64,000 bases of DNA, from assembly GCF_014205015.1 (NCBI RefSeq), contig NZ_JACHMO010000001.1, forward strand, positions 1,240,001 through 1,304,000, given 5' to 3'. Positions 38,499 to 60,200 of the stretch are shown here, piece after piece. The notes beneath the pieces were generated by a model. The model did no database searches. It was not told the DNA's origin and saw only the letters and a list, made by a program, of their open reading frames with translations. The stretch's first letter is position 1; each line of letters opens with the position of its first letter. The DNA is from Saccharothrix ecbatanensis. Its GTDB lineage: Bacteria > Actinomycetota > Actinomycetes > Mycobacteriales > Pseudonocardiaceae. The position numbers were made by a program, and so were the translations under genes.

Positions 38499-40088
38499 TC
38501 AGAACCCGGAAGTGAGGCCTTCCTGCCTGCCGTCGTCGAGTCCGTAGACTGACCGCGCGTGCCGTCCCAGCACCCGCTGTGCCCCACCAACGCTGGCCCG
38601 CACCCGCAGCGTGTGTCCCGCCGCGCCGAGCCACTCCTGCACGTCCGCGGGCATCGAGGAGTCGACCTGTAGGTGCGGCGGCACGCCTGCCTCGGTCTTG
38701 TCCGCTCCGGGCAGGTACGTCCACCGTGGACGGTTCAGCGCCGCCAGCGGGCCCGCTCCGTCCACCAGCATCGCGGCGAGCAGCTGCGTGTTCCACTGGC
38801 ACTGGCCGTCACCGCCGGGTGTGCCGCCGAGCCAGCGCACCTCCTCGGCGTCGGCCGCGCTCCACGCGAAGATGGTGTTGACCGGACGCCTGCCGGGCGC
38901 GACGCCGTTCGGCTCGGTGGGGGAGAGGGTCGCGCTGCGGCCCAGCCGGTTGCACAGCAGCAGCCCCAGCTCGCCGACGCCGACACCGGAACCGAAGCCC
39001 AGCCCGAGGCTCTGCGTCCAGCTCACGCTGTTGCCCACCTCGTCCACGATCGCGAAGTGCGTGGTGTCGCCGTCGTTGTAGTGCCCGGCGTAACGGGTGG
39101 CGCTGCGCTTGTCCGGGTCGACCTCGCCCGCCAGCTCCGCGAGCACCGCCTCCGCCAACGGATCGGCGGGCGGCGTGCACGCCGGATCGCCCAGGTGCTC
39201 GATCCGCCACGCGTAGGTCTGGTGGAAGATCTCCGACAGCAGGTGCACGCCCGCCGCCGAATCGGCGCTGTCCCCACCCCTCAGCCGTTCGTAGAGCGAG
39301 AGGTTCTGCAGCAGCAGCACACCCTGCGTCGGCGCCGGGTTCGTGGCGACCCGCGCGCCTGCCACCGACACGGTCGCGGCGGGCACGATCTCCCCGACCC
39401 GGACGCGGCAGTCACCGGGTGCGAAGAACCCGTCCAACCGGTCGCTGAGCTTCGTCACGCTCGCGTCGAGCTCGGCTTCCAGCCCATCGACCGAACTCGC
39501 CATCAGCCGGTACAGCGCGGCCAGTCCGGGGTTCGGCAGCAGGCCGCCCACGGCCGACTTCGCCGCGTGCGGCCCGTACAGCCCGGCGAACTCCGGCTGG
39601 CTGAGCACCGCCAGGTTGTCCTGGATCCAACGCGCGGTCTGCGTGGTGACGGGAGTGCCCTGCTCGGCCAGCGCGATGGCCGGTGCGAGCAGCCGGGACC
39701 ACGGCATCGTTCCGTGCGCCTCGTGCAGGGCGCACCAGGCGCCCAGCAGACCCGGTGTGGTGGCCGACTCGATTCCCCGGCCGGGCACGGTCCGGTGGCC
39801 ACGCGCGGTGAAGTTCGCCGCCGTGGCGTGCGTGGGCGCCCGGCCCAGCCCGGTCAACGACCAGGCCTGGGCCGAACCCTCGACGTGGAACACCGCCGCC
39901 GCGTCACCGGCGGGCCCCGACGCCATCGGCATCGCCACCGTCAGCACCGCCGACGCCGTGATGGCGGCGTCGAACGCCGTGCCGCCGTCACGGAGCACGT
40001 CCAGCGCCGCCAGCGTCGCGGCCGAGCTGCCGGTGGACACCATCGCCCGCGCCCCCCACTGCTGGCGGTCGCGCAACACGTCACGCAT
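38499..40088 (-). CDS. Gamma-glutamyltransferase family protein
   Basis: The 529-residue Ntn-hydrolase precursor has the autoprocessing and catalytic Thr342 in NDGDTTHFAIVDEVGN, giving a small subunit of about 188 residues after cleavage. The start MRDVLRD lacks an export signal, so it is probably cytoplasmic, unlike typical nutrient-scavenging GGT. The ATG at 40088 overlaps the methyltransferase stop by 8 bases. As the last gene of a seven-gene operon it may add, remove or transfer a gamma-glutamyl group, or hydrolyse an amide, in a biosynthetic route. Confidence 0.88.
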   Translation of the reverse strand: MRDVLRDRQQWGARAMVSTGSSAATLAALDVLRDGGTAFDAAITASAVLTVAMPMASGPAGDAAAVFHVEGSAQAWSLTGLGRAPTHATAANFTARGHRTVPGRGIESATTPGLLGAWCALHEAHGTMPWSRLLAPAIALAEQGTPVTTQTARWIQDNLAVLSQPEFAGLYGPHAAKSAVGGLLPNPGLAALYRLMASSVDGLEAELDASVTKLSDRLDGFFAPGDCRVRVGEIVPAATVSVAGARVATNPAPTQGVLLLQNLSLYERLRGGDSADSAAGVHLLSEIFHQTYAWRIEHLGDPACTPPADPLAEAVLAELAGEVDPDKRSATRYAGHYNDGDTTHFAIVDEVGNSVSWTQSLGLGFGSGVGVGELGLLLCNRLGRSATLSPTEPNGVAPGRRPVNTIFAWSAADAEEVRWLGGTPGGDGQCQWNTQLLAAMLVDGAGPLAALNRPRWTYLPGADKTEAGVPPHLQVDSSMPADVQEWLGAAGHTLRVRASVGGAQRVLGRHARSVYGLDDGRQEGLTSGF

Positions 40089-40860
40089 GCTCTTCCTTGC
40101 GCAGCCGCAGGAACACGCTGGCGTGCACCAGCTCCACCTCACCTTCGCCGAGCACCGAGCACAGCGCGTCGACGGCGTCCTGCACGGGCACCTGCGCCGC
40201 CGTCCACGGCCCGCCACTGGCCACCCACCAGCGGGCGCGGACCTCCGCCGGGACGGACACCGTTCGTTCCAGCAGGAAGGCGTCCTGCACCGCGAACCCC
40301 GCCGCGCCCGCCAGTTCCTCCGCCCCCGCCACCGTCAGCCTGCGCGCCTCGAACGGATCCGGCTCGGACAAGCCGGTCAGCCGGGACAGCGCCGCCTGGG
40401 ACTGCTCGGCGAACCGGTCCGTCGCCGCCGTGCGGCCCGCTGTCGCCACACAGGCCAGCCCGCCGTCGACCAGCAGCGCGTTCATCGTCGTGAACACCTC
40501 GGCGAAGCGCGGGTGCATCCAGTGCAGCGCGGCGTTGGAGAACACCGCGTCGTAGCGCCGATCCGTTGTCACGTCCGGAAAAGCGCCCTGGGTGAAGCGA
40601 ACCCGATCCGGCCAGTCCTTTCGCGCCGCCACCGCGAGCATGTCGTCCGACACGTCGACGGCGTCGATGCGGGCCGAGGGTAACCGGTGCACCAGCGCCT
40701 CGGTGAGAGCTCCGGTCCCGCAGCCGATCTCGTAGACGGTCCTGGGCTCGGTGGGCCGGGGGTGCAGCCCGGCCACCAGCTCCGCGTTGCGGAACTGGAC
40801 GCGTCGGGCCAGCACGTCGTAGTCGGCGGCGCTGTTCCAGCGGTGGCCGGTGACCGTCAC
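40081..40860 (-). CDS. SAM-dependent methyltransferase (trans-aconitate-MT-like)
   Basis: The 259-residue class I methyltransferase has motif I YEIGCGTGALTEALV, motif II region DAVDVSDDMLAVAA and motif IV DAVFSNAALHWM, close to the Tam (trans-aconitate methyltransferase) branch, whose members methylate carboxylates. The GTG at 40860 overlaps the BKACE stop by 4 bases. It belongs to the GTP-cyclohydrolase operon; its substrate is presumably a pathway acid but is not known. Confidence 0.85.
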   Translation of the reverse strand: MTVTGHRWNSAADYDVLARRVQFRNAELVAGLHPRPTEPRTVYEIGCGTGALTEALVHRLPSARIDAVDVSDDMLAVAARKDWPDRVRFTQGAFPDVTTDRRYDAVFSNAALHWMHPRFAEVFTTMNALLVDGGLACVATAGRTAATDRFAEQSQAALSRLTGLSEPDPFEARRLTVAGAEELAGAAGFAVQDAFLLERTVSVPAEVRARWWVASGGPWTAAQVPVQDAVDALCSVLGEGEVELVHASVFLRLRKEEHA

Positions 40861-41711
40861 GTGCGCACCACCTGCGGCAGGCCGATGATCTCGCGGACCT
40901 GCCGCGGGGTGGCGGGCTCGCGGCCCATCTCCCGCGCGATGCGCACGATGCGCTCCACCAGCCGGGGGTTCGTGGTCGGCTCCTTGGCCTTCCAGTCCAG
41001 GTAGGGGTTGTCCTCGAGGCCGACCCGGACGTGCCCGCCGAGGCTGAGCGCCAGCGTGTTCGCGGCCAGCTGGAACCGGCCGATGCCCGCGAACGCCCAC
41101 GTGGACGGCTGGGGCAGCGCGCCCAGCACGGCGGCGGCGTTGGCCGCGCTCACGTCGGCGGTGCCGATCGAGCCGAACAGGATGTTGAGGTAGTACGGCG
41201 GCTTGAGGATGCCGCGCGAGATCAGGTAGTTGGCGTAGTTCACCATGCCGATGTCGAAGATCTCCAACTCCGGCACGATGCCGCGTTCGTGCATCGCCCG
41301 CGCCAGACCCTCGATCGTCTCCGGCGAGTTCACCGACGGCCCGGACACGAAGTTCATCGAACCCAGCGTCAGCGACGCCATCTCCGGGCGGGCCAGGTTG
41401 TCCACCGTCAGCGCCGCGGCGCGCTTGTCCAGGTCGGACCAGTTGCGGCCGCTCGTGGTGACCACGAGCACGATGTCCGGCGTCAGCGTCACCACCGCGT
41501 CCACGATGTCGGTGAACCGCTGCGGGCTCCAGGTGGGCTCCTCGTCGTCCTCCCTGGCGTGCAGGTGGACCATGCCCGCACCCGCCTCGTAGCAGCGGCG
41601 GACGTCCTTGGCGATCTCGTCGGGGGTGATGGGCACGTCCGGCACCTTCGCCCGGCGCGGCACCATCCCGGTGGGACACAGGTTGATGATGACCTGGTCG
41701 GGAAGACTCAT
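40857..41711 (-). CDS. BKACE-family beta-keto acid cleavage enzyme (DUF849)
   Basis: The 284-residue TIM-barrel protein has the metal-binding GMVHLHARE motif (His49, His51) and the conserved SLGGHVRVGLEDN near the C-terminus. The family splits a beta-keto acid with acetyl-CoA to give acetoacetate and a new CoA ester; the founding member acts in lysine degradation, but members vary widely. The ATG overlaps the upstream gene stop by 4 bases. In this operon it may use a pathway keto acid, which would be an unusual setting. Confidence 0.87.
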   Translation of the reverse strand: MSLPDQVIINLCPTGMVPRRAKVPDVPITPDEIAKDVRRCYEAGAGMVHLHAREDDEEPTWSPQRFTDIVDAVVTLTPDIVLVVTTSGRNWSDLDKRAAALTVDNLARPEMASLTLGSMNFVSGPSVNSPETIEGLARAMHERGIVPELEIFDIGMVNYANYLISRGILKPPYYLNILFGSIGTADVSAANAAAVLGALPQPSTWAFAGIGRFQLAANTLALSLGGHVRVGLEDNPYLDWKAKEPTTNPRLVERIVRIAREMGREPATPRQVREIIGLPQVVRT

Positions 41712-42202
41712 ACCCCTCGCCTCTCCTCGGTCGCGGAAAGCCGCCACACACCGGTCCACTGCCCGGGTGCGGGCGTCTGCCCCGCGGGTCGGCAGCGCAG
41801 CGTCGCGCCACCGTCGATGTCGATCAGTCCGTGGTCGTCGGCGGTGGGTTCGCCCGCACCGAGGACCACGGCGGGCCCGGGGGACAGGTCGCGCTCCACC
41901 GCCGGTTCCCAGCGATAGCGGCGCACGTCCGGATCCTTGCGCCACAACGGTTTCGCGGACACCCAGAAGCCGGTCAGCGCGGCGGGCGGATCTGCCCAGA
42001 CCGCCTCCCTGTCCGCGAAGTCCCGCCACAGCCAGTACACGCACAGCTCGGTCTCGTCGTCCGAACGCACCAGCACCTGGTACCTGAGCAGGCCGGGCAC
42101 GCTCAACGCCTGGCCCAGGACGACGTTGAGGCGCAGCAGTTCCGCGCCCTCGCCAGGACGCGCGAACTGCCGGCCCAACACCGCGACGGCGGCGCCGCTC
42201 AT
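41708..42202 (-). CDS. ABM-fold (dimeric alpha-beta barrel) protein
   Basis: The 164-residue protein has an N-terminal domain (AVAVLGRQFARPGEGAELLR, then LRYQVLVRSDDETELCVYWL) resembling the antibiotic-biosynthesis monooxygenase fold, followed by about 60 residues without recognised features. Such proteins can be cofactor-free oxygenases, cyclases or dehydratases. The ATG overlaps the cyclohydrolase stop by 4 bases. Assignment of the fold is moderate and its role is open. Confidence 0.6.
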   Translation of the reverse strand: MSGAAVAVLGRQFARPGEGAELLRLNVVLGQALSVPGLLRYQVLVRSDDETELCVYWLWRDFADREAVWADPPAALTGFWVSAKPLWRKDPDVRRYRWEPAVERDLSPGPAVVLGAGEPTADDHGLIDIDGGATLRCRPAGQTPAPGQWTGVWRLSATEERRGV

Positions 42203-42810
42203 CCGACGAGCCCGCTGCCCGACGAGTCCAAGTGTCCCATGAGGATGTCCTTGACCCTCAGGTACTCGGAGTTGTGCGGGCTGACGAAACCACCGTGCGG
42301 CACCCGTTCCACGGTCAGTCCCGCGTCGACCAGCGCCTCGATCTTGCTCGGGTTGTTCGTCGCAAGGCGGAGGCCGGACACACCCAGCTGGCGCAACGCG
42401 TCGGCGGCGGCGCGGTAGTCGCGGGCGTCGGCGGGCAGCCCGAGGTGGATGTTCGCCGCCACCGTGTCCATGCCCTGTTCCTGCAACGCATAGGCCTTGA
42501 TCTTGTTGACCAGGCCGATGCCCCGGCCCTCGTGCCGGGGCAGGTACAGCAGGATTCCGTGCGGTTCCTGCGCCATCAGCCGCACCGCGGTGACCAGCTG
42601 TGGTCCGCAGTCGCACCGAAGCGAGGCCAGGATGTCGCCCGTGAAGCACGCGCTGTGCAGGCGCACCAACGGTCGATGGAGCGCGTCCGGTCCTCCGTGC
42701 ACGAGGGCGATGACGTCCTCACGTCCGTCGGCGTCGCCGAAGACGTGCAAGGTGAAGTCGCCGTAGGACGTCGGTAACTCGCAGCTGGCGAGCAACGCCG
42801 TTGTCAGCAC
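42199..42810 (-). CDS. ribA: GTP cyclohydrolase II
   Basis: The 203-residue enzyme has the three zinc cysteines Cys55, Cys66 and Cys68 (CFTGDILASLRCDCG) and the catalytic RHEGRGIGL with Arg96. It opens GTP to 2,5-diamino-6-ribosylamino-pyrimidinone phosphate, formate and pyrophosphate. It is a stand-alone form without the RibB domain, and no other riboflavin gene is near. Such copies occur in secondary-metabolite clusters that draw on GTP. GGGGGAG precedes the GTG at 42810. Adjacent methyltransferase, BKACE and GGT genes support a specialised pathway rather than riboflavin supply. Confidence 0.9.
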   Translation of the reverse strand: MLTTALLASCELPTSYGDFTLHVFGDADGREDVIALVHGGPDALHRPLVRLHSACFTGDILASLRCDCGPQLVTAVRLMAQEPHGILLYLPRHEGRGIGLVNKIKAYALQEQGMDTVAANIHLGLPADARDYRAAADALRQLGVSGLRLATNNPSKIEALVDAGLTVERVPHGGFVSPHNSEYLRVKDILMGHLDSSGSGLVG

Positions 42811-42842
42811 TTGTCGTTCTCCCCCAGTAGCAAGCGTGTCGC

Positions 42843-44033
42843 TCAGTCTCGATAGCGGTCGATGCGCCCGATCGCTCCTTCCGGCTGCCACGACAGCAGG
42901 GGGATGTGGGCGTTGACGGTCTGACCGTCGTTCAGCAACGCCGACGACGGGTGGTACAGGTGCAACATGGGGTCGGCGTACTGGTCGAACGCCGTCGCCA
43001 GCTGCACCCTCAGCACGAAGTCGAGGTCTTCGCGGCCCCACCCCTCGAACCGCTCGTCCATGCCACCCACCGCGTCGAACACGTCCCGCCGCAGCCACAC
43101 GCACATTCCGGGCGCACGATGAACCCGGAAGGCGCGCAACCGATCCGGATCCGCCTCGGCCCGACCCGTCACGCAGCGGTCCGCGATCGCACGCACGGAC
43201 GCCGGTTCGTCGAGGTACGACAAGTCCCGGAACGGCATGAACCCACCAGAGCCGTCCAGGTCGAACCGGGCCACGTTGCGTGCGATGAAATCCTTGTCGA
43301 CCAGGGCATCCGCGTCAAGGACGCAGACGAGGGGCGCGGGTCGGGCGCTGTTCACCACGCCGACGTTGGTGGCCCAGCACTTGTTGAACGGCCCGTCATG
43401 CGGTGCGAAAATGTGCTCGTCGGCGTACTTCTCCGCCAGCTCCCGCCACCGCGGCTCGTCGTCGGCCTCGACCACCGTGACCTGGTAGTCGGCCCGATCG
43501 ACGCTCTGGTCGGCCAGGGACCTCAGGCAGGCGGCCAGGTTCCGGCTCCGGTACTCGTCCTGGCTCCGGTTCCGGAACGTGATCACGACCTGCGCCAGCG
43601 GTTCCGCTGATCCGCCGGTCGCCCTCGCCGCCTCCCACCGCTTCCAGTCGCCGCTCTCCGTCGCCGTCCGGTCGTAGGCGCTGCCCACGTGATAGCCCAA
43701 CCGGGACCGCCGCACCAGGTCCAACGCCGCCCGCGTCAGTTCCTCCGTCTTGCGGCCGGGATCGTCGATGGCGGCCTTCGCCAGCCCGCGAGCCCGTTCC
43801 CAGTGGGCGGCACTGCCCGGATCGGCGTCCAGTGCCGCGACGGCGGCGGACAGCTCCGCGTCACCACAGGACTCGACCGCGTCCATCACCCCCGCGAGCG
43901 GGTCCTGCGTCCGGTGCCAGTAATAGGGGTTCGCGCCTCGCGCCCCGTCGTCCGCCTTCAGCACCACGGCGTCGGCGACGGCGCGGGCAGACTTGTCGGA
44001 GTCCACTGGCGGCCTCATGCGTCCTCTTCTCAT
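42843..44033 (-). CDS. Galactosyltransferase-like glycosyltransferase (GT2/GT27 fold)
   Basis: The 396-residue protein has about 125 N-terminal residues without known domain, then a GT-A fold: AQVVITFRNRSQDEYRSRNL, metal-binding LVCVLDADALVDKD, and WGREDLDFVLR, the acceptor-side motif of galactosyltransferase-like enzymes. It should move a sugar from a nucleotide donor. ATG 44033 overlaps the MFS stop by 4 bases; ATG 44018 with AAGAGGA before it is the other candidate. A 32-base gap leads to the GTP cyclohydrolase gene. It may glycosylate the pathway product. Confidence 0.82.
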   Translation of the reverse strand: MRRGRMRPPVDSDKSARAVADAVVLKADDGARGANPYYWHRTQDPLAGVMDAVESCGDAELSAAVAALDADPGSAAHWERARGLAKAAIDDPGRKTEELTRAALDLVRRSRLGYHVGSAYDRTATESGDWKRWEAARATGGSAEPLAQVVITFRNRSQDEYRSRNLAACLRSLADQSVDRADYQVTVVEADDEPRWRELAEKYADEHIFAPHDGPFNKCWATNVGVVNSARPAPLVCVLDADALVDKDFIARNVARFDLDGSGGFMPFRDLSYLDEPASVRAIADRCVTGRAEADPDRLRAFRVHRAPGMCVWLRRDVFDAVGGMDERFEGWGREDLDFVLRVQLATAFDQYADPMLHLYHPSSALLNDGQTVNAHIPLLSWQPEGAIGRIDRYRD

Positions 44034-45283
44034 GCGTGTACCGGTTGCTTCGCGTTCGTGTCCCGCCGGGGGATCTTGTCATCGATCTCGGCGGGAAGCC
44101 GCTGGCGCAGCAGGAAGAACACGAGCGTGGCGCCCGCGGCGAACGCGGCGAACACCTGCCACACCGCGGTGGCCGACGTCGCGAGCAGGACTCCGACGAT
44201 CGCGGGCCCGGTGATGTTCGGGATCGACCAGGACAGCTGGAAGACCGAGACGAAGCGGCCCCGCCACACGGGCGGTGCCGCCGCGACGGCCAGGCTGGTC
44301 GCGGCCGGACCGGCGGCGGTCTCGCCGAGCGCGAGGAACACGACCCCGGCGAACACCAGCGCGACCGCGGGCGCGGTGCTGTCCACTGCCGACGCGCACG
44401 CCAGCAACACGATCGCGACGAGGAAGAACCCGGCCCCTGCCATCACGGTCGTGGTTCTGCGCAACGTGCCCAGTCGCGCGGTGACCAACGTCTGGAGCAA
44501 AGCCGCCAGCACCATCTTCATCGTCAGCGCGGACGCGGCGACCCACACGGCCAGCACCGTGTACTTGGCCACGTACAGCGGAAGGATCAGCGACGGGATC
44601 AGCCAGGCGAACGTCAGCAGCGTGTTCGCGAGCGTCAGCGAGAGGTACCTGCCGTCGCGCAGGAGTGCGGGCCAGCCGCCCTTCGGCACCGCGGCACGTG
44701 TCGTGCGACCGCCGCGCACCGACAGGAACAGCGCACCGGCGATGAGCGACGACGCGACGTTCAAGGCCAGCATCACCCGCAGTCCGCCGGTGCCGCCGAA
44801 GGCCAACGCGGCGGCACCGAGCGCCCCACCGGCCGCGAGACTCGCGCTCTTGGCCACGTTGACCATGGAGTACCACCGGTCGAGTCCCTCGTCGCCGACG
44901 TGCTCGCCGACGAACACCGGCCAGGTGGCCCAGTACATCCGGTCTGCGAGCGTCACCAGCGCGACGCCGCAGACAAGCATGGCCGGTCCGGTAACGGTGA
45001 AGTAGAAGGAGTAACCGATCGCCGCCACAACCGTCTGCGCCACCAGCACGCGCTGGGCTCCGACGCGGTCCACGAGCTGACCGATCAGCGGCGTGACCGG
45101 CAGCCCGACCAGGCTCGCCACCGTGATCGTGAGACCGAGCTGGCCCAGAGGGATATCGGTGGTCTCGGACAGGTACAGGAAGGTGAGCGGGAAGAACGCG
45201 CCCGCACCGACGGTGTCCACAAGCACCGCGACGAACAGCCGGCGGCGGCCGGCTGAATCCGCGCTCACCACCCCACCGTGCAT
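44030..45283 (-). CDS. MFS transporter, probable exporter of the GTP-cyclohydrolase operon
   Basis: A 12-helix major facilitator protein of about 417 residues, with the loop motif GQLVDRVGAQRVLV after helix 2. Several starts are possible: ATG 45283, GTG 45268 or a TTG further up; none has a strong ribosome site. It is the first gene of the seven-gene run and overlaps the glycosyltransferase gene. Position suggests export of the product or self-resistance. The gap of 291 bases to the divergent GMC gene holds an inverted repeat. Confidence 0.85.
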   Translation of the reverse strand: MHGGVVSADSAGRRRLFVAVLVDTVGAGAFFPLTFLYLSETTDIPLGQLGLTITVASLVGLPVTPLIGQLVDRVGAQRVLVAQTVVAAIGYSFYFTVTGPAMLVCGVALVTLADRMYWATWPVFVGEHVGDEGLDRWYSMVNVAKSASLAAGGALGAAALAFGGTGGLRVMLALNVASSLIAGALFLSVRGGRTTRAAVPKGGWPALLRDGRYLSLTLANTLLTFAWLIPSLILPLYVAKYTVLAVWVAASALTMKMVLAALLQTLVTARLGTLRRTTTVMAGAGFFLVAIVLLACASAVDSTAPAVALVFAGVVFLALGETAAGPAATSLAVAAAPPVWRGRFVSVFQLSWSIPNITGPAIVGVLLATSATAVWQVFAAFAAGATLVFFLLRQRLPAEIDDKIPRRDTNAKQPVHA

Positions 45284-45412
45284 CGTCCACAAAGGGGAGA
45301 TACGCAAATGGCGGATAACAGCACCACGAGCCCGTACCCCCCAGCACGCCGCCGGACGACCCTTCGGCCGTCATCTTCCCTGTATATCACCACGTGAGGG
45401 CGGGTGGTATTC

Positions 45413-45442
45413 CGTGTCCGTACCCGGTCATAAACGGACACG
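45413..45442. promoter_or_regulatory. Inverted repeat between MFS operon and GMC gene
   Basis: CGTGTCCGT (45413-45421) and ACGGACACG (45434-45442) are perfect 9-base arms 12 bases apart, in the middle of a divergent promoter region. Size and placement fit an operator for a dimeric repressor that would control both directions. No regulator gene is adjacent. Confidence 0.5.
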
Positions 45443-45574
45443 CTGTCGGTTCCCGGTTTAACGCACGTTGACGAAAAGCGCGGCTACGCTCGCCACGGTC
45501 TCACTCGCGCCGTCCGTTTACCGGGGTCATTGACGGCGATATGAGACGCAATCCATTAGCTCGAAAGGACATTG

Positions 45575-47215
45575 ATGTCAAGGACAGATCGGGACATCCG
45601 GCAAGACCCGGACGAGATCGCTCGCCGAGTGCAGGACGGAAGCCTCAGCCGACGGGGCCTGCTCAAGTTGTTCGGTGTGTCGGCGGCGTCCGTCGCGTTC
45701 GCCTCGACCGCGGGAACGGCAGGCGCGGCAGCTCGTTGCTACGACTACGTCATCGTGGGCGCGGGGTCGGCCGGGTGCACGCTGGCCGCGCGATTACTGG
45801 CGGACTCACGGGCGAGCGTGCTGCTGATCGAGGCCGGCGGGACGAACGACCTGCCGGAGGTGCGGGACTTCACCAAGGCGGGCTCGCTGACGTGGGGCGG
45901 CTCGCCGCTCATCTGGCCGTACCAGTCGGAGCCGCAGCCGGAGCTGCTGAACGCGACGCAGTCGTTCGTGTGCGGGAAGCTGGGTGGCGGCAGCAGTTCG
46001 GTGAACGGGATGGTGTGGGTCAAGGGCAACCCGGCCGACTTCGACCACTGGGCCGCCCAAGGCGCTGTCGGCTGGGACTACGCGAGCGTGCGGCCGTCGC
46101 TGGACGCGATGACCGGGCCGATCAGGCCGTCGAGTGAGCTGACGCAGCGCAACCTGCTCTCCCAGGCCACGGTGAACGCGGCCGTCGGCATCGGCCACCC
46201 GTTCAACCCCGACTACAACGGCGCGACCCAGTTCGGTGTCGGCTACACGCAGCTCAACGTGGTGAACCAGATCCGCCAGGATGCGTTCACCGCGTTCCTG
46301 ACCCCGTACCTCACCGACCCGCGCCTGACGATCATGACGGACGCGGAGGTCTCGCGGCTGACGTTCGACGGCCGGAAGGCGATCGACGGCGTCGTCATCA
46401 ACGCGGCTGGTCGCCAGTTCACGGTCCGGGCCGACCGCGAGGTCGTCCTCAGCACGGGCACGATCAACACGCCCCGCCTGCTCCAGCTGTCCGGCATCGG
46501 CGCGGCGCGCGACCTGAGGCCGCTCGGCATCCCGGTCGTCGTCGACCTGCCCGGCGTCGGGGCGAACCTGCACGACCACCTGATCTCCGTGACGCTGAAG
46601 AAGCTCCGCGCGCCGGAGCCCGAGTCGCACCTGACCGCGATGGACGTCAGCGTCTTCACCGGCAGCGGTCGGGTGCCGGGTACGCCGAAGTTCCAGTTCC
46701 AGGTCTACTACACGCGTGACGGGTATCCGCCCTATCCGGGGAACTCGACGTCGGTCGGGGTGATCAACCTGCACCCGACCAGCCGCGGGTACGTCAAGCT
46801 GCGGTCGGCGGACCCCACCGTGCCGCCGGTCATCCAGCCGAACTTCCTGCGCACCGGGGAAGACCTCGAGAACCAGGTGGAGGGCTACCGGTTGGCCATG
46901 GACCTGATGAATTCGCCGGGACTGCGCGACTGGGTGGTGGACGACGAGTCCCTCCCCGGCCCGGGTTTCGACACCAGGGAGAAGCTGATCGAAGCGGTGC
47001 GCACGTACTCGCAGGCCGATTTCCACGCGGTCGGCACCTGTCGGATGGGCACCGACGCGAACGCCGTCGTGGATCCGAGGCTGCGCGTGCGCGGCGTCAC
47101 CGGCCTGCGGCTGGCCAGTGCCGCGATCATGCCCAGCGTCACGTCGGGCAACACCAACGCGCCGTCGATGATGATCGGCGACCACTGCGGCCGGATCATG
47201 CTGGGCCGCGCCTGA
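45575..47215 (+). CDS. Tat-exported GMC-family FAD oxidoreductase
   Basis: The 546-residue protein has a twin-arginine signal (SLSRRGLLKLFG with hydrophobic stretch to residue about 50), the FAD motif YDYVIVGAGSAGCTLAARLL and the second GMC signature near STGTINTPRLLQLSGIG. The catalytic His lies in FHAVGTCRMG and a second conserved polar pair in TSGNTNAPSMMIGDH. Members oxidise alcohols (glucose, choline, aryl alcohols). The ATG at 45575 follows AAAGGAC. It diverges from the GTP-cyclohydrolase operon and may be co-regulated by the shared inverted repeat. It could tailor the exported product outside the cell. Confidence 0.88.
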   Translation: MSRTDRDIRQDPDEIARRVQDGSLSRRGLLKLFGVSAASVAFASTAGTAGAAARCYDYVIVGAGSAGCTLAARLLADSRASVLLIEAGGTNDLPEVRDFTKAGSLTWGGSPLIWPYQSEPQPELLNATQSFVCGKLGGGSSSVNGMVWVKGNPADFDHWAAQGAVGWDYASVRPSLDAMTGPIRPSSELTQRNLLSQATVNAAVGIGHPFNPDYNGATQFGVGYTQLNVVNQIRQDAFTAFLTPYLTDPRLTIMTDAEVSRLTFDGRKAIDGVVINAAGRQFTVRADREVVLSTGTINTPRLLQLSGIGAARDLRPLGIPVVVDLPGVGANLHDHLISVTLKKLRAPEPESHLTAMDVSVFTGSGRVPGTPKFQFQVYYTRDGYPPYPGNSTSVGVINLHPTSRGYVKLRSADPTVPPVIQPNFLRTGEDLENQVEGYRLAMDLMNSPGLRDWVVDDESLPGPGFDTREKLIEAVRTYSQADFHAVGTCRMGTDANAVVDPRLRVRGVTGLRLASAAIMPSVTSGNTNAPSMMIGDHCGRIMLGRA

Positions 47216-51309: not shown

Positions 51310-52743
51310 TCAGTTCGTGGCCAACTCGGCGTTCACCTTACGTCGCCGGAAGATCACCCGGGAGCCGTTCTTCGGGATGTTGACGACGATGCGGCTGTGC
51401 GCGGGTTCCGGCTTCGGGTCGGCCCGCTCGACCACGCAGGTGGTGAAGATCGCCGTCAACGTGGCCTTCAGCTCGGTGAACGCGATCCGGTCGCCGAGGC
51501 AACGGGTGTGCCCGCCGCCGAACGGGATCCACGTGTGCGAGCCGGGCTTGGTGCCGAACCAGCGCTCGGGCTGGAACTCCTCCGGCTGCGAGTAGGTGTC
51601 CGCGTCCCGGTTGAGCAGGTAGGCGCTGGCCCACAGGCGGTCACCGGGCTGGTACTGCACGCCGCCGATCACGATCGGCTTGACGATCGCGCGGGGCACG
51701 ATCTGGAGGATCGGCGAGCCGAGCCGCAGCACCTCGTGCACCACCGCGTCCAGGTACTTGTCGCTGGCGCCCTCGTCGATCTCGGCGATCAGCTTGTCGA
51801 GCGCGTCCGGGTTCCGGGTGAGGAACTCCAACGCCCAGCAGATGGCCGAGGCGGTCGTTTCCGTACCGGCCAGGAACTGCGTCATGATCTCGTCGCGCAT
51901 CTCGATCCTGGTCGGCGACGAACCGTCCTTGTTGGTGATCGACAGCATCACCCCGAGCAGGTCGTCACCGGGCGCGCCGGACTTGATCCGCTCGTCGATC
52001 GCCTGGTCGACCATCTTGTGGAGCTGCTCACGCTGCTTGAGGAACGTGTTGATGCCGTTGGGGCGCATCGCCTTCAGCATCGCCATCCGCCAAGCGGGCA
52101 GCCGGTGGAACATCGTCATGGACGACGTGCGGGAGTTGAAGGTCAGCATCTTCATGACCAGTTCGAGCATCTCGTCCTGGCGGGACGGGCGGTGCTCCCC
52201 GAAGAGGACCTCCATGATCACCAAGGTGGTGTAGCGGTGTGCGTACGGGTGCACGGACACCGCCTCGTCGCGCGGCCAGGACGCGACGGTCTCGTTGGCC
52301 AGGTCGTAGACGGCCCGCTCGACGCGCTTCAGCGCCGAGCCGCGGAAACTCGGCATGACCGCGCGACGCCGCTCGAGGTGCGCTTCCTCCTCCAGGAAGG
52401 CGAGTCCGTTCTGGCCGGTCCACTTCTCGATCGGGCCGTTGCTGGAACCGGTGTGCACCTTGTCCCGGGGCGCGAGGAACATCTCCTTCACGTCCTGCGG
52501 CGCGGAGACCACGTGAATGCGGATGCCGGGGATGATCGTCACCCGGAACCGGTGGCCGTACTTGGCGCGGGACTCGCTGAAGAACTTCTCCGGGCGAGCC
52601 CAGATGCCGAGCACCTGGCGGATCCTCGATAGTTCCACCACCGGCAGCGCGGTGGAGGGGATGACGGCCTGGGGGGTCGGCGCGGTGTGGTCGACCGGGC
52701 ACTTGCCCTCGGCCACGTCGGGCGCGTTGCTGGAGTGGTCCAC
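51310..52743 (-). CDS. Cytochrome P450, PKS tailoring enzyme
   Basis: The roughly 477-residue P450 has the oxygen-binding I-helix LAGTETTASA, the ExxR pair in VHEVLRLG and the heme loop FGGGHTRCLGDR with the axial Cys. The start chosen is GTG 52743 with AAGGAAG 8 bases before; ATG 52761 is possible. It resembles bacterial class P450s with fatty-acid-like or polyketide substrates. It lies 35 bases after the exporter gene in the PKS run, so it probably oxidises the released polyketide. Confidence 0.9.
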   Translation of the reverse strand: MDHSSNAPDVAEGKCPVDHTAPTPQAVIPSTALPVVELSRIRQVLGIWARPEKFFSESRAKYGHRFRVTIIPGIRIHVVSAPQDVKEMFLAPRDKVHTGSSNGPIEKWTGQNGLAFLEEEAHLERRRAVMPSFRGSALKRVERAVYDLANETVASWPRDEAVSVHPYAHRYTTLVIMEVLFGEHRPSRQDEMLELVMKMLTFNSRTSSMTMFHRLPAWRMAMLKAMRPNGINTFLKQREQLHKMVDQAIDERIKSGAPGDDLLGVMLSITNKDGSSPTRIEMRDEIMTQFLAGTETTASAICWALEFLTRNPDALDKLIAEIDEGASDKYLDAVVHEVLRLGSPILQIVPRAIVKPIVIGGVQYQPGDRLWASAYLLNRDADTYSQPEEFQPERWFGTKPGSHTWIPFGGGHTRCLGDRIAFTELKATLTAIFTTCVVERADPKPEPAHSRIVVNIPKNGSRVIFRRRKVNAELATN

Positions 52744-52778
52744 TGTCTTTGCTTCCTTCATCTCGGTGACCGGGTGGT

Positions 52779-54218
52779 TCAATTGGCCCGACTTGCCGTT
52801 TCCGCAGGCGCCGCGGGCTCGTGCCCGGTCACCGCCGACGGTTTGCCCACTTCGGCCGGGGCCGGGCGGTTCACCGGGCCGACCGCGAGCAAGGCGAGCC
52901 CGCTGGCCAAGCCCGCGCCTGCCATGATCATGAACGCTACTTGGAACGAGGCGAGATCCGGGGCACCGGCGAGCACGGCCGCCACCACGGCGACACCGAG
53001 CGCCATGCCGATCTGGCGGGACATGGCCGACATGCCGGTGCCGGTCGCCATGCGCTCCGGCGGCAGCGACAGCGTGGCGGCGGCGGCCAGCGCGGGCAGG
53101 ATGAGGCCGAACCCGATGCCGCCGATGATCGATCCGGGCAGGAAGCCGCCGCCGAAGTCCGGGGTGCCGTCCAGCACGAGTGCCCACCAGACGCCCGCGG
53201 CCGAGAAGAGGATGCCGCCGACCAGCCCGATCAGGCGCACTCCGTAGCGGACGGCCAGGATGCCGCTGGGAACGGCGAAGAAAGCGGCGGCCACCGGTCC
53301 CGGCGCGATCTCCATGGCGCCCCGCAGCGTCGAGTGCTGCCAGATCTGGGTCAGGAAGAGGATCGTGGACAAGGCCATCGCGCCGACGCCCATGAAGAAC
53401 AAGGCGGTGGCGACGTTGCCCAGGGCCACGTTCCTGATCCTGAGGAGAGCGGGTTCGATGACCGGGGCGGGGTGCCGAAGCGCCCGCCGCACGGTGTAGA
53501 CGAGACCAAGCGCGCCCACCACCGACAGGCCGATGACCTGGGCGCTGCCCCAGCCCCACGACTGCCCCTGGGAGATCGCCGCGACGAGCGCCGCGACCGT
53601 CGCCGCGAGCACGACGATGCCGAGCATGTCGGGGACGGGACCGGCTTCCTTCTCGGACTTCGGCAGCGCCCAGATGCCGATCGCCACGGCCACCACCCCG
53701 AGGGGGAGGTTCACGATGAAGATCGCGCGCCAGTCGGACTGGGCGAGCAGGCCACCCAGCGGCAGCGCGGCGGCGGAGCCGACCCCGCCCACCGCGGTCC
53801 ACAGGCCGATCGCGATGCCGCGCCGGTGCGCGGGGAAGAGCCCGAGCAGCAGCCCCAGGGAGCTGGGCGCCATCAACGCGGCGCCGACGCCTTGCAGCGC
53901 CCGTGTCGCCACGAGCACTTCGAGCGAGGTCGCCGCGGCGCAGATCGCCGATGCCACGGTGAACAGCGCCAGGCCGAGCAGGAAGACCTGCTTGCGCCCC
54001 GACCGGTCCGCCCAGCGGCCACTGGGCAGCAGCAGCGCGGCGAACGTGATCGCGTAGGCGCTCATCACCCAGGACAGCGAGGTCAGGCTCGCGGACTGGA
54101 AGGTCTTCTGCATGCTCGGGAAGGCGATGTTCACGATCAGCATGTCGACCGCGGAGATGAACACCCCGATGAGGATGACCGTGATGGCCATACCCCGGCG
54201 GAGCGTGTCGTTGCTCAT
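52779..54218 (-). CDS. DHA2-family (14-TM) MFS exporter
   Basis: The 479-residue transporter has about 14 membrane helices and the DHA2 motifs ADRSGRKQVFLLG and LGGLLAQSDWRAIFIVNLPLG. Its ATG overlaps the PKS stop by 4 bases, so it is co-translated with the PKS. It is the probable product exporter and self-resistance gene. Confidence 0.92.
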   Translation of the reverse strand: MSNDTLRRGMAITVILIGVFISAVDMLIVNIAFPSMQKTFQSASLTSLSWVMSAYAITFAALLLPSGRWADRSGRKQVFLLGLALFTVASAICAAATSLEVLVATRALQGVGAALMAPSSLGLLLGLFPAHRRGIAIGLWTAVGGVGSAAALPLGGLLAQSDWRAIFIVNLPLGVVAVAIGIWALPKSEKEAGPVPDMLGIVVLAATVAALVAAISQGQSWGWGSAQVIGLSVVGALGLVYTVRRALRHPAPVIEPALLRIRNVALGNVATALFFMGVGAMALSTILFLTQIWQHSTLRGAMEIAPGPVAAAFFAVPSGILAVRYGVRLIGLVGGILFSAAGVWWALVLDGTPDFGGGFLPGSIIGGIGFGLILPALAAAATLSLPPERMATGTGMSAMSRQIGMALGVAVVAAVLAGAPDLASFQVAFMIMAGAGLASGLALLAVGPVNRPAPAEVGKPSAVTGHEPAAPAETASRAN

Positions 54219-57200
54219 GCGTGGATCCAACTTTCGATTTCGTCAGCGGTGGTGGTGGCGGCGGCCTCGATGAGGGCGAAGTGGTCGGCCGCGACCACGG
54301 TGTGGACGTCGGTGGTCTCCCACCGCGTTCCGGCCCGGTCCGTTCCGCCGTCGAGCGGCTCGGCCGCCCGGATCATCAGGGTCTTGGCGGAAATCGGCGT
54401 CTGCCGGTGGTGCGCGAACAGGCGCAGGTAGGTGCCCATGGACAGCCAGTTCGCGTCGGAGATGGAGAGGTCGCGCCGCTCGTGCGCGATGATCTCCGTC
54501 ATCATCGCCGCGAAGGCCTGCCCGACATGCTCACCGTCGACCTGCTCACCGTCGCCGTCGAGGGCCAACGTGTCGATCATGACGACCCCGGTCGGCGCGG
54601 CGCCCGAGGTTTCGAGGCGTTCGGCCAGGGCGTGCGCCACGATGCCGCCCATGGAGTAGCCGACCAGGACGAACGGCGCGTCGCCGACGGCCGTGCGGAT
54701 CTCGCCTTCCAGAACTTCCAGGGCGACCTCCCTGGACTGCGGTGACAGCCCGGTGCCGAAGCCGGGCAGCGAGCAGACGTGCACATCCCGCACGCCCTCG
54801 AAGCGGTCGGCCAGCCGCATGAACTGCTCCTGGCCGGAGCCGACGACGTACACGTAGGACGGCACGCAGACGATCTTCACCCGGCCCGGCCCGGAGGCGA
54901 GCTGCGCGACCCGTCCGTCGGTGTCGGGCAGCTCGGCGGCCGAGGAGAAGACGGGCCCGCGGCCCGCGGCGTCCACGAGCTGCCGCAACGCCTCGGGCAT
55001 GGTCCCGTTCTCGGCGGCGTGCTTGAGCCGCACGCTGATCATGTCCTCGGTCGGTGCGCCGGCGTCCGCCGTCCCGGTACCGACGAGCTTGAGCAGCTGC
55101 CGTGCGATCTCGGCCGGGGTGGGGTGCTCGAAGACGAACGACACGGGCAGGCGCAGGCCGGTCGCCTGGGCGAGCCGGTTGCGCAGCCCGACCGCGGTCA
55201 TCGAGTCCATGCCGAGTTCGGTGAGCTTGCGCTCGACGTCGACCTGGTCGGCGGAGTGGTGGCCGAGCACGGCCGCCACCTGAGCCTTGACCAGGTCCAA
55301 CGCGACGCCGTCCTGGTCCGCGTCGGACACCCCGGCCAGCCGCTGCGCGAGCGAGCCGCCCTCCGTCGCACGCTTGGCGGGCAGCCGGACCAGACCGCGC
55401 AACAGCGCGGGGAGGGACTCCTCACGGGCCTGCGCCCGCAACGCCGCCATGTCCAGTCGCACCGGCGCCAGCAGTGCGGCGTCCACGCCGACGGCGTGGT
55501 CGAACAGCGCCAGTCCGCTCTCCAGGGACAGGTCCGCGGTGCCCGCCGACCCGACGGCGTCGGGCGTTGCCCCCGCCCAGGCTCCCCACGCCAGCACGGT
55601 CCCGGCGAGTCCTGCCGAGCGGCGCCTGCGCACCAGCGCCTCCGCGCATGCCGCGTCCACGGACGCGACCGGGGCCACCTCCCGGCCGCCGCCGATGGCG
55701 GCGAACGAGGAGAACAGCACGAATGCGGAAAGGTCCAGTCGCTCGGTCGCCGCGTGCAGCTGCCAGGCCAGGTCCAGCCTGTCACCGTCGAGGTCGCCGC
55801 CGGTGTGCAGCACCGCCGTGAGCGGCTGCTCCAGGGACTCGATCAGCGGGGCCAGCCGGTCCGGGGCAGCGGTCTCGACGCGCGCCCGCGCGCCGAGACC
55901 TTCCAGTTCCCCGACCAGTTCTGCCACGCCGTGTCCATCGTGACCTTGCTCGGTGAGCAGGAGCAGGTTCCTGACGCCGTGCCGGGCCGCCAGGTGCTTC
56001 GCCAGCGCTGAGCCCGCGCGGGTCGAGCCGCCGGTGATCAGGACGGTGCCCTCGGGGTCCAGCGGCCTCGTCCGGTCCGCGGCTCCGGCGGACACACGGG
56101 CCAGTCTGGGAACCAGGACCTGCCCACCGCGCACGGCGAGCCGCGGTTCGTCCAGGTCGAGCAACGCGCTCCACTCCGGCTCGCCATCCGCGTCCACCAC
56201 GACGAAACGACCGGGGTCCTGGGCCTGCGCGGCCCGGACCACACCCCACACCGCTGCCTGCGCGGCATCGGGGACTTCATCCCCGACACCCACTGCGGCA
56301 CGCGTCGTCACCACGAGCGTGGCCGCGCCCAACCGCGTGCACGCCGACCACTGGCGCACCAGATCCGACGCCTCGGCCGCCGCGGCGCGCACGGCTGCCA
56401 GACCGTCCGAGGCAGAGGTGTCGATCGCGGCCAGCACGACCCGGGGGGCCGCGGCGCCACCGTCGACAGCCCGTTCGAGCGCGGCCAGGTCCTCGAACCG
56501 GTCCGCCGCACCCCCGACCCCACCCAGACCGGCCAACCGCACCGGCCGGGCAACCCCGACCGGGACCGGGACCCAGTCCACCCCGTACATCGAGTTCTGC
56601 TCCCGGCGCAGCGCCTCCAGGTGGGCCTGGTCGGGCTCGCGGAACACGACCCGATCCACCTGCGCCACCGGCGCGCCGTTGACGTCGAAGACGTCCAGCC
56701 GCAGGGTGTCGCCGTCGGCGGTGACGCGGGCCCGGCCCCGGGTGGCGCCGGTCGCGGCCAACCGCACTCCCGACCACGAGACCGGCAACTTCGCCGCGCC
56801 CTGCTCGCCGAAGCTCAGCTGCCCGATGTGCAGCGCGGACTCGAACAGGGCCGGGTGGATCCCGAAGCTGTCCACCTCGGTGCCGTCCGCGAGCGCGAGC
56901 TCGGCGTACGCCGCACCGTCCAGGGTCCACACCGCCCGCAGGCCTTGCAGCGCGGGGCCGCAGTCCAGGCCGAGTCCCGCCAAGGACGCGTACAACGCGT
57001 CGACCGACACGGACTCCGCACCCGCCGGCGGCCACTCGCCCTGCCAACCGGGCAGGGGCTCGGCGTCCGGCGCGAGCCAACCACGGCAGTGGCAGGTCGA
57101 CTCGGCGTGCTTGTCGCCATCCGGCCGGGAGTAGACCGCCACCTCGCGGCGACCGTCCGCGCCGAGACCGCCGACGATCACCTGGATGTGCAGCGCCGAA

Positions 57201-60200
57201 CCCTCCGACACCAGCAGCGGCGCCAGGAACATCATCTCGTCGAGCAGCGGGGCCTCGACCTCACGGCCCGCGGCCAGCGCCAGTTCGACCAGCGTCGTGC
57301 TGGGCGTGACCGGGAGGCCGAACGCGCCGTGGTCGCGGAGCCAGGGCTGGGAGTCCTGGGAGAGGCGACCGGTGAGCACCCACTCGTCCCGGTCGGCGAG
57401 CTGCACGGCCGCCGCCAGCACGGGGTGCCCGACGTCGCCGAGGCCGGCGGAGCCGCGGTCACCGACGTGCTGACTCGCGCTCGGCCAGTACCGCCTGCGC
57501 TGGAAGGCGTAGGTGGGCAGGGGGACCTGCCGCGCGCCGGAGTCGGCGAAGCAGGCGTCCCAGTCGACCTTGACGCCGGCGACGTGCGCCTCGCCGAGTG
57601 AGAGCAGGAAGCGGTTCAGGCCGCCCTGGTCCCGCCGCAGCGAGCCGAGCACGCCGACCCTGCCTTCGACCCGCGCGGCGGCGATGGTGTCCTCCACCGG
57701 CACGACCAGCATGGGGTGCGGGGAGATCTCCACGAAGCAACTCGCGCCGTTGTCGATCAGCGCCCGGATCGCCGGCTCGAAGCCGACCGGGTTGCGCAGG
57801 TTGGCGTACCAGTAGTCCGCGTCCATCGTCGCGGTGTCGATGAACGCCCCGAGCGCCGTCGAGTACAGCGGGACGTTCCCGCGGCGTGGCGTGACCGGGG
57901 CGAAGGCCGCCAGCATCTCGTCGCGGGCCACCTCCACGTGCGCCGAGTGCGAGGCGAAGGTGGCGGCGAGCTTCTTCGCCCGGATCTCCTCGCGTTCACA
58001 CCGCGCCACGAGCTCGTCGATCGAATCCGTGTCGCCCGCGATGATCACCGCCGCCGGACCGTTGATCGCCGCCACCGTCACGCGATCCCCGTACGACGCG
58101 ATCAGCTGCCGGACCTGCTCGGCGGGCAACCCGACCGAGGCGATGCAGGTCGTTCCCACGAGCATGTCCCGGGCCACCTGGCTGCGTCGCGCCACGACCC
58201 TGGCCGCATCCCGCAGCGAGAGGGCGCCCGCGACGTACGCCGCGGCGATCTCGCCCTGCGAGTGCCCCACCACGGCCGACGGCTCGACGCCGTAGGACCG
58301 CCACAAGGCGGCCAGACCCGCCATCACGGCGAACAAGGCAGGCTGCACGACGTCGACCTGTTGCAGGGACGGCGCATCGGCCGCACCTCGCAGCACGTCC
58401 TCCAACCGCCAGTCGACGAACTCCGCCAGGGCTTCTCCACACGCGGCGATCTCGGCGGCGAAGACGGGGGAGGAGTCGAGCAGTTCGACCGCCATGCCCA
58501 GCCACTGGCCACCCTGACCCGGGAACACGAACACCGGCTTGACGGCGCCGGAGGGGCGGCCCGAGGCCGTCCGCTCCGTCGGGTCGCCCACGGCGAAGGC
58601 GGCCAGTTCGGCGGCCAGCTCGTCCCGGTCGCCCGCCACGAACACCGCCTGGTGGTCCAGCCGGGCTCGCGTCGCCAGCTGGGAGTACCCGAGGTCGGGC
58701 AAGGAGAGCCCGGGGTTCTCCAGCACGTGCAGGCGCAGCCGCTCGGCTTGGGCCCGCAGGGCGGGCTCGGTGCGCGCGGACAGCAGCACCGGCGTCGCGG
58801 GCGCCGGGGCGACGGCCTCGGGAACGACGGCCTCGGATCCGTCGACTTCGACGTCGGTGGGCGCCTCTTCGAGGATGATGTGCGCGTTGGTGCCGCTCAC
58901 CCCGAAGGACGACACGCCCGCGCGGCGGGGACGGCCGTGGCCGTTCCACTCCCTGGCTTCGGTCAGCAGCTCGACCTCGCCGGAGTCCCAGTCGATGTGC
59001 GAGGACGGCGTCTCCGCGTGCAGGGTCCGGGGCAGGACCCCGTGCCGCATCGCCATCACCATCTTGATCACACCGGCGACACCGGCCGCACCCGAGGTGT
59101 GGCCGATGTTCGACTTGATCGAGCCGAGCCACAGGGGCCCGTTCGCGCGTTCCCGGCCGTACGTCGCCAACAGGGCGTGTGCCTCGATCGGATCACCGAG
59201 CGCGGTGCCCGTGCCGTGACCCTCGACCACGTCCACATCGGACGGGGTCAGTCCGGCGTTGGCCAGCGCCTGTCGGATGACCCGCTCCTGAGCGGGGCCG
59301 CTCGGCGCGGTCAGACCGTTGCTCGCGCCGTCCTGGTTGATCGCCGTGCCCCGGACGAGGCCGAGGATGCGCCGTCCGTTGCGCTGGGCGTCGGACAACC
59401 GCTCCAGCACCACAAGGCCGAGCCCGTCGGCGAAACCGGTGCCGTCGGCCGAAGCCGAGTAGGCGCGGCAGCGGCCGTCCGGGGAGTTCGCCCGTTGACG
59501 GGTGAACTCCGTGAACGTGATCGGCGTCGTCATGAACGTCACGCCGCCGACCAACGCGAGGGAGCACTCGCCGCTCCTCAGCGACTGCGCCGCCAGGTGC
59601 ATCGCCACGCCCGAGGAGGAGCAGGCCGTCTCCACCGACACGGCGGGACCTTCCAACCCCAGGGTGTAGGCGATGCGGCCCGAGGCGACGCTGGACATGG
59701 TGCCGGTGAGGCGGTAGCCCTCGTACTCGCTCGGCACGAGCATCCCGTAGTCGGCGCCGGTGATGCCGAGGAAGACGCCGGTGTCGCTGCCCCGCAAGGA
59801 GGTCGGGTCGATACCGGAGCGCTCGAAAGCCTCCCAGGACGTCTCCAGCAGCAGGCGCTGCTGGGGGTCCATGGCCATGGACTCGCGGGGGCTGATCCCG
59901 AAGAACTCGGCGTCGAAGTCACCCATGCCGGAGATGAAGCCACCGCCGCGGGCGTCGGTCGTGCCGATCTTCTCGATGTCCGTGCTGTAGAGCCCTTCCA
60001 GGTCCCAGCCCCGGTCGGTCGGGAACGGGCCGATCACGTCGCGGCCCTCGGCCACCAGTTCCCACAGCTCTTCGGGGGAGGTGACGCCGCCGGGGTAGCG
60101 GCAGCCGATGCCGACGATCGCCAGCGGCTCGTCCACCGCCCCGTGCCGCTTCTGCGCGGCGGGCAGGGCAGTCCCCGCGGTGCCGTCGACCTCGGCGAGC

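Follow-up and report, generated by a model that had tools for sequence, protein, structure and literature searches.

A conserved GTP cyclohydrolase II gene set of Saccharothrix ecbatanensis as a candidate specialised-metabolite operon with a RosG-type protein

The subject of this analysis is a run of seven genes on the minus strand at 38499-45283 of a 64,000-nucleotide stretch of Saccharothrix ecbatanensis DNA (the window; located at 1.24-1.30 Mb in a genome assembled as a single contig of 9.69 Mb). They encode a major facilitator superfamily (MFS) exporter, a glycosyltransferase (GT), a GTP cyclohydrolase II (GCHII), an ABM-fold protein, a BKACE enzyme, a methyltransferase (MT) and a GGT-family protein. 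At a probability of about 0.55, we propose that the seven genes form a compact specialised-metabolite operon which draws on the first step of the riboflavin pathway, from GTP to a pyrimidine, and whose product would be glycosylated and exported. The occurrence of a related set beside genes for vitamin-B2-like antibiotics seems to point to a pathway apparently not yet described. To our knowledge, few natural products start from GCHII; two surfaced in the literature searched.

Organization and conservation of the gene set

All seven open reading frames are open at the following coordinates. The MFS exporter (44030-45283; PF07690, 83.9 bits) overlaps the GT by 4 bases if the GT start at 44033 is used; with a start at 44006 there is a 23-base gap instead. 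The GT (42843-44033) is of GT2/GT7C type, with PF00535 and PF02709 matches covering residues 149-346, and its N-terminal ~148 residues are without a Pfam match. A gap of 32 bases separates it from GCHII (42199-42810). The next genes overlap by 4 bases at each junction: the 164-residue ABM protein (41708-42202), the BKACE (DUF849) enzyme (40857-41711) and the BioC/Tam-like MT (40081-40860), predicted to be dependent on S-adenosylmethionine. The MT gene in turn overlaps the gene for the RosG-type GGT-family N-terminal nucleophile (Ntn) hydrolase (38499-40088) by 8 bases. BKACE scored 292.3 bits with PF05853 against a Pfam cut-off of 24.8 and was aligned to 2y7d over residues 7-278. The MT and the GGT matched PF13649 (60.5 bits) and PF01019 (G_glu_transpept, 284.3 bits), and no NCBIfam cut-off was reached by the MT. 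The ABM profile score of 22.0 bits is slightly below the cut-off of 23.1; by its predicted model (pLDDT 76.3, 11 sequences) the protein, which has a C-terminal extension, adopts the ABM monomer fold, with a good barrel at residues ~1-100 and a less certain remainder. The family assignments of the preliminary description agree with these profile matches and the predicted fold, and its overlaps and 32-base gap were found, the one between MFS and GT depending on the GT start.

The same seven genes in identical order were found in Saccharothrix algeriensis (L004), Lentzea sp. NEAU-D7 (L005) and Actinocrinis puniceicyclus (L007), where the contig ends within the GGT gene. Identities are 80-96% in the first two and 62-85% in the third (for the MFS exporter, 82-85% and 67%). 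The four genomes with this order, the window's included, span two orders, Pseudonocardiales and Catenulisporales. Across the 21 comparisons made with the window genes, the ratio of nonsynonymous to synonymous substitutions (dN/dS) lay in the range 0.07-0.47. The 4-base BKACE/MT overlap is kept in all four genomes, and that between GCHII and ABM in these and in 'Saccharothrix sp. ST-888' (L052/L053); the ABM/BKACE spacing is a +5 gap in S. algeriensis. On the linear plasmid NZ_CP115301.1 of Streptomyces camelliae the seven genes are rearranged, with GCHII-BKACE-MT-MFS-GT-ABM on one strand and GGT divergent. The cluster is more than a chance association, because its order is the same in three other genomes, dN/dS is below 0.5 and the seven genes are found reordered in S. 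camelliae.

A smaller core of GCHII, ABM, BKACE, MT and GGT is present in ST-888 and in Streptantibioticus rubrisoli (L051/L054/L055), the ABM of the latter as a 41.5% tblastn stretch in L051. A FemAB/GNAT protein and a pair of related ATP-grasp proteins are further encoded in both of these and in S. camelliae. In trees of GCHII, BKACE, MT and GGT (7-10 sequences each; the finer branching varies), the Saccharothrix-type four and the Streptomycetaceae three are split from each other in every case. The preliminary description had suggested genome mining for the joint occurrence of GCHII, BKACE and GGT, and the three are together in seven core-bearing genomes; the conservation on which it depended is likewise seen in the four relatives with all seven genes.

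That the genes do not constitute one pathway, but a transport and salvage operon assembled by chance, appears very improbable. The BKACE relatives do include enzymes that are catabolic by name, and distant BKACE homologues (L033, 64%; L034, 51%) are located in other contexts without GCHII or the rest of the set. Against this, the seven genes stay together through rearrangement and across orders.

GCHII of the cluster and the housekeeping riboflavin genes

Enzymes of the GCHII family open the imidazole ring of GTP, giving 2,5-diamino-6-ribosylamino-pyrimidinone phosphate. Scanned from a start at 42834, the window protein scored 191.4 bits with GTP_cyclohydro2 (PF00925) and 207.4 bits with TIGR00505 (ribA), for which the cut-off is 205.85. 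On alignment to E. coli 2bz0, three Cys and the Tyr of KIxAYALQ, which we take to be the Zn-site and active-site residues, respectively, are retained, and this is true of 7/7 cluster GCHIIs. The window protein is thus a GTP cyclohydrolase II by family cut-offs and catalytic residues, and activity on GTP is predicted.

Three GCHII matches in total are present in the window genome. A RibD-riboflavin synthase-RibBA-RibH operon is located outside the window at 4.99-5.00 Mb of the chromosome (RibD and RibH being named by sequence reading, riboflavin synthase and DHBP synthase by domain placement), and the sole DHBP-synthase and riboflavin-synthase domains of the genome are at 4.997 Mb. Since a complete riboflavin operon exists elsewhere, the window GCHII is not the housekeeping copy, a possibility to which the preliminary description had drawn attention. 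Its remark that no other riboflavin gene accompanies GCHII is in keeping with the 20 proteins scanned in the window (33.3-52.7 kb), among which there is none. Window GCHII is 50% and 48% identical to its two genomic paralogues, RibBA and a copy at 8.65 Mb. In a FastTree phylogeny of nine GCHIIs the seven cluster copies split from both paralogues with a support of 0.997, and the Saccharothrix-type four from the rest with a support of >=0.955. A GCHII-based biosynthetic cluster, as first proposed, is therefore upheld to the extent that GCHII belongs to a conserved accessory unit, keeps its catalytic residues and is separate from the RibBA operon.

The second paralogue (G000:C1:8642000-8660000) lies beside PTPS, creatininase and RibD_C genes, in a region which presumably resembles SCO6650-SCO6655 of S. 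coelicolor. It has His at the position of the window's KIxAYALQ Tyr. Assignment of the window copy to the FAPy type, which we take to be marked by an active-site switch, was rejected: it retains Tyr, and the His is in the 8.65-Mb paralogue.

The GGT-family protein is of RosG type

Thr342 of the window GGT aligns with residue 1 of the small chain of E. coli GGT (2dbu_B), and this catalytic Thr is retained in 8/8 aligned GGTs. No signal peptide is visible by eye. In the three proteins scanned, scores with the TIGR00066 equivalog (window, 176.9; S. camelliae, L040, 189.2; ST-888, 185.1 bits) are all below the cut-off of 357.85. By hand count against E. coli 2e0w, residues R114, N411, Q430, D433, S462 and S463, which we take to be gamma-glutamyl-binding, are replaced by L, G, R, R, N and T, although the first of the six might be aligned differently, since an Arg stands two residues past the R114 site. 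The gamma-glutamylation step of the preliminary description is not borne out by these replacements and the missed cut-off.

The window protein is 57% identical to the RosG homologue of S. camelliae. The latter, WP_270086806.1 of strain HUAS 2-6, is listed as such with 77.71% to S. davaonensis (PMC11039241) and is the same GGT that adjoins GCHII, BKACE and MT in S. camelliae. A possible role suggested for RosG is the release of glutamate for RosB (PMC11039241). RosG-type GGTs are, however, found with BKACE in genomes in which no RosB was found nearby. Because the binding residues are replaced, the TIGR00066 score is about half the cut-off and the gene adjoins BKACE away from RosB, the comparison argues that RosG-type proteins would not be classical gamma-glutamyl transferases. 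The suggested role of RosG is thereby called into question. The overall interpretation first given for the locus stands as regards a conserved accessory GCHII unit and falls as regards gamma-glutamylation; it had overlooked the link to roseoflavin and RosG.

Relation to the roseoflavin genes

In work on S. berlinensis the rosB cluster is defined as rosG-ribE2-ribX-ribY-rosB; RosA, RosB and RosC suffice for conversion of flavin mononucleotide (FMN) to roseoflavin, and ribE2 and ribXY are explained as raising riboflavin levels (PMC11039241). In S. camelliae, ribC, ribX, a RibY-like gene and rosB are located downstream of GGT on the same strand, with ribB and rosC farther on. For this strain the table of PMC11039241 has neither RosA nor RibX and 8-amino-riboflavin is predicted as the product; the plasmid annotation does name ribX. 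RibC, RibX, RibY, RibB and radical-SAM genes are found near the core in S. rubrisoli, but neither RosB nor RosC has a match in 43 kb there; nor does either in ST-888, where 32 of 41 kb were searched. RibC is the archaeal-type riboflavin synthase (S. camelliae against 2b98, E 9.7e-47; S. rubrisoli with TIGR01506, 166.5 against 100.55), present in 2/9 genomes searched (2/7 core-bearing) and inside the cluster both times.

The GGT of the window is of RosG type, as in the S. davaonensis group with its rosB and rosA clusters. The window differs from a roseoflavin cluster: at E 1e-8 it gave no tblastn match to RosB, RosC, RibC/RibE2, RibX or RibY, RosA not having been searched for. We tentatively suggest, with somewhat less than even confidence, that RosG, GCHII, BKACE, MT and ABM could represent an independent, undescribed pathway to a GTP-derived conjugate, to which ros genes were added in one lineage. 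RosG would then not be the glutamate supplier of RosB, and the window would hold the free-standing, glycosylated and compact form. The Streptomycetaceae versions of the core have in addition the two ATP-grasp ligases and the FemAB/GNAT protein, and in some cases radical-SAM and carrier-protein genes. As the conserved set recurs without ros genes, it offers a testable role for function-unassigned genes beside rosB and rosA, and the unit of 6.8 kb is compact enough to be expressed as one piece. In S. cinnabarinus, a roseoflavin producer (PMC11039241), BKACE and GT homologues were seen on contigs of equal size (9,621,721).

Possible product of the pathway

If the early-pyrimidine skeleton is correct, GCHII, by its retained residues, would provide 2,5-diamino-6-ribosylamino-pyrimidinone phosphate as precursor. 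ABM, BKACE and MT may construct or alter a side chain of the pyrimidine, BKACE acting by acetyl-CoA-dependent acyl transfer or by retro-Claisen cleavage. An amide or a C-C bond could be the target of the RosG-type protein, acting as Ntn-hydrolase or acylase. The GT would attach a sugar, and the product would leave through the MFS exporter.

Alternatively, the product could derive from finished riboflavin or FMN. The part of GCHII would then be confined to increasing the flavin supply, a function that ribE2, ribXY and perhaps ribB have in roseoflavin clusters, and MT, GT and the other enzymes would decorate the flavin. In S. camelliae and S. rubrisoli, ribC/ribE2, ribX, ribY and ribB are near the core, an FMN riboswitch precedes the extra ribB (L042:5205-5333 and L051:2267-2397, respectively), and riboflavin levels are raised by ribE2 and ribXY in the S. 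berlinensis account (PMC11039241). However, archaeal-type RibC is absent from the Saccharothrix, Lentzea and Actinocrinis genomes, a single DHBP synthase was found in the window genome and in S. algeriensis (RibB was tested in five genomes), and there is no FMN riboswitch in the window or in the S. algeriensis, Lentzea and Actinocrinis loci; control of the cluster by such a riboswitch was accordingly discarded. A flavin-derived product is considered the less likely of the two. The early-pyrimidine skeleton is favoured because GCHII is universal in the clusters (7/7 core-bearing) and overlaps ABM in five genomes, and it is held to be about twice as likely.

Several points weigh against the early-pyrimidine operon proposed here. 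The flavin supply genes and FMN riboswitches of the two relatives fit a flavin-derived product better. The MFS gene of S. camelliae is frame-broken in the public sequence, and the GT, homologues of which are present in S. algeriensis, Lentzea, Actinocrinis and S. camelliae, gave no tblastn match in S. rubrisoli and ST-888, both of which bear the core. A genome of the window's own family, G350, has an adjacent BKACE-GGT pair without GCHII, and no GCHII, MT, ABM or GT match was found in about 43 kb around it; the BKACE/GGT step may therefore not touch the pyrimidine. In G350, GNAT-like (33%) and ATP-grasp-like (26%) matches are seen ~12 kb off the pair, and octopine-dehydrogenase-like, TauD, class-III aminotransferase and M20 genes are near it (L045-L047).

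Comparison with known systems

Vicine is a pyrimidine glucoside. Its pathway in faba bean (vicine/convicine, VC1/RIBA) also begins with GCHII but is a plant pathway, for which the portion of the source used names no BKACE, GGT or ABM step (PMC12202586). With the pseudoiodinine genes psdABCDEFG, related to toxoflavin by their authors, the window shares only the GCHII entry from GTP and a methyltransferase (PMC9911603). The pseudoiodinine cluster has RibD, WD40, sulphatase-modifying-factor and glyoxalase genes (PMC9911603), none of which is among the 20 window proteins scanned; the window has BKACE, GGT, ABM and GT in their place. The mismatch to azapteridine (toxoflavin-type) clusters that had been noted at the outset is supported by the same absence.

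Like the window, the flavophos bsf cluster of Burkholderia has a duplicate enzyme of riboflavin synthesis and a BKACE-family enzyme in which Phe takes the place of the catalytic Tyr; it differs in making a phosphonate via PepM and in having lumazine synthase rather than GCHII as the duplicate (PMC12871164). Counted by hand, with a 6-residue tag taken into account, Phe152 of the window BKACE is at the position of Tyr145 of CcaKce, with Phe in 20/20 usable rows. Tyr145 is given as a feature of the canonical beta-keto acid cleavage enzyme, and its change to Phe is suggested possibly to matter for acetyl transfer instead of cleavage (PMC12871164). Phe is also present at the equivalent site of 3no5, 3chv and 3fa5, PDB relatives without a named function, which weakens this residue as a sign of flavophos-like chemistry. 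As Phe occurs elsewhere in DUF849, it is not diagnostic and Tyr145 may not define the BKACE family.

By analogy with flavophos, GCHII could be a duplicate target that tolerates an inhibitor of the riboflavin pathway made by the other genes. Such self-resistance has a precedent in the flavophos combination of a DUF849 enzyme with a resistance-conferring duplicate lumazine synthase (PMC12871164), and two relatives have, besides the standard enzymes, a further ribB and a non-homologous riboflavin synthase that accompany the core. Unlike bsfB of flavophos, however, which is encoded on the opposite strand (PMC12871164), GCHII is part of the operon, and its 4-base overlap with ABM recurs in five genomes. 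Self-resistance is considered improbable here. We know of no natural GCHII inhibitor, which also counts against it.

When genome contigs were scanned with the GT, 13 loci were obtained. The GT is 42-47% identical to homologues in clusters of cyclitol type (L008, L009, L010, L013 and in part L011), presumably validamycin-like. These loci have no GCHII match, and BKACE reaches <=37% in the genomes searched, that of L011 excepted. The GT is all that L008-L013 have in common with the window set, and a cyclitol cluster was rejected on this ground. In L008-L011 and L013 the GT homologues are in a conserved cluster with sugar-phosphate cyclase, nucleotidyltransferase, ROK kinase, RmlD-like, glyoxalase and 2OG oxygenase genes, the families having been scanned in L010 only and L011 being without cyclase and glyoxalase matches. 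In Saccharothrix NRRL B-16314 (L006) only the GT (80%) matches within 21 kb, the best BKACE of that genome being at 33%; this orphan copy (L006:7119-11188) is beside FAD-binding and aminotransferase genes. GT homologues of L014-L016 are at 24-34% identity.

The window has the defining genes of none of the named cluster types tested. No mention of the GCHII-BKACE-GGT set was found in the CC-licensed PMC papers searched, where the one search aimed at GCHII with BKACE gave the flavophos paper alone.

Distribution of the gene set

The gene set is rare and patchy in distribution, as judged from genome sets which overlap and which, except for the genus and family sets, are samples. BKACE was found at E 1e-60 in 2/25 genus genomes and at E 1e-90 in 4/390 family genomes, namely the window's own genome, those of S. 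algeriensis and Lentzea, and G350, in which GCHII is not nearby. At E 1e-80, 3/396 phylum genomes had it: the window's own, plus G612 and G710, neither of which has GCHII nearby. One of 392 Streptomyces genomes passed at E 1e-90, as did 3/355 in the family of that genome. For ABM, 5/397 order genomes passed, its own match alone being full-length; the other four were matches of 59-68 residues (E 2.9e-4 to 7.4e-4). The ABM protein search gave at least 8 proteins, the window's own kind included, a lower bound because the S. camelliae and ST-888 relatives are missed.

Neighbouring genes

A gene for a GMC oxidoreductase (45572-47215, plus strand; PF00732/PF05199) is divergent from the MFS gene and is a candidate eighth member. 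It is 83-86% identical and likewise divergent from MFS in S. algeriensis and Lentzea; the Actinocrinis contig is too short to show it. The start of the protein is twin-arginine-like by eye. The region between the two genes (45284-45571), in which DNA alignment revealed blocks common to S. algeriensis and Lentzea, is a putative divergent promoter region. In Lentzea a gene with a helix-turn-helix domain (L005:7356-8369) is located between GMC and MFS; it is not in that gap in the window or in S. algeriensis. Farther on, 51310-63934 of the window is probably a separate polyketide cluster, with a P450, an MFS-like gene, a 3239-residue open reading frame with a weak ketosynthase match, and an Rfam ASpks match inside it.

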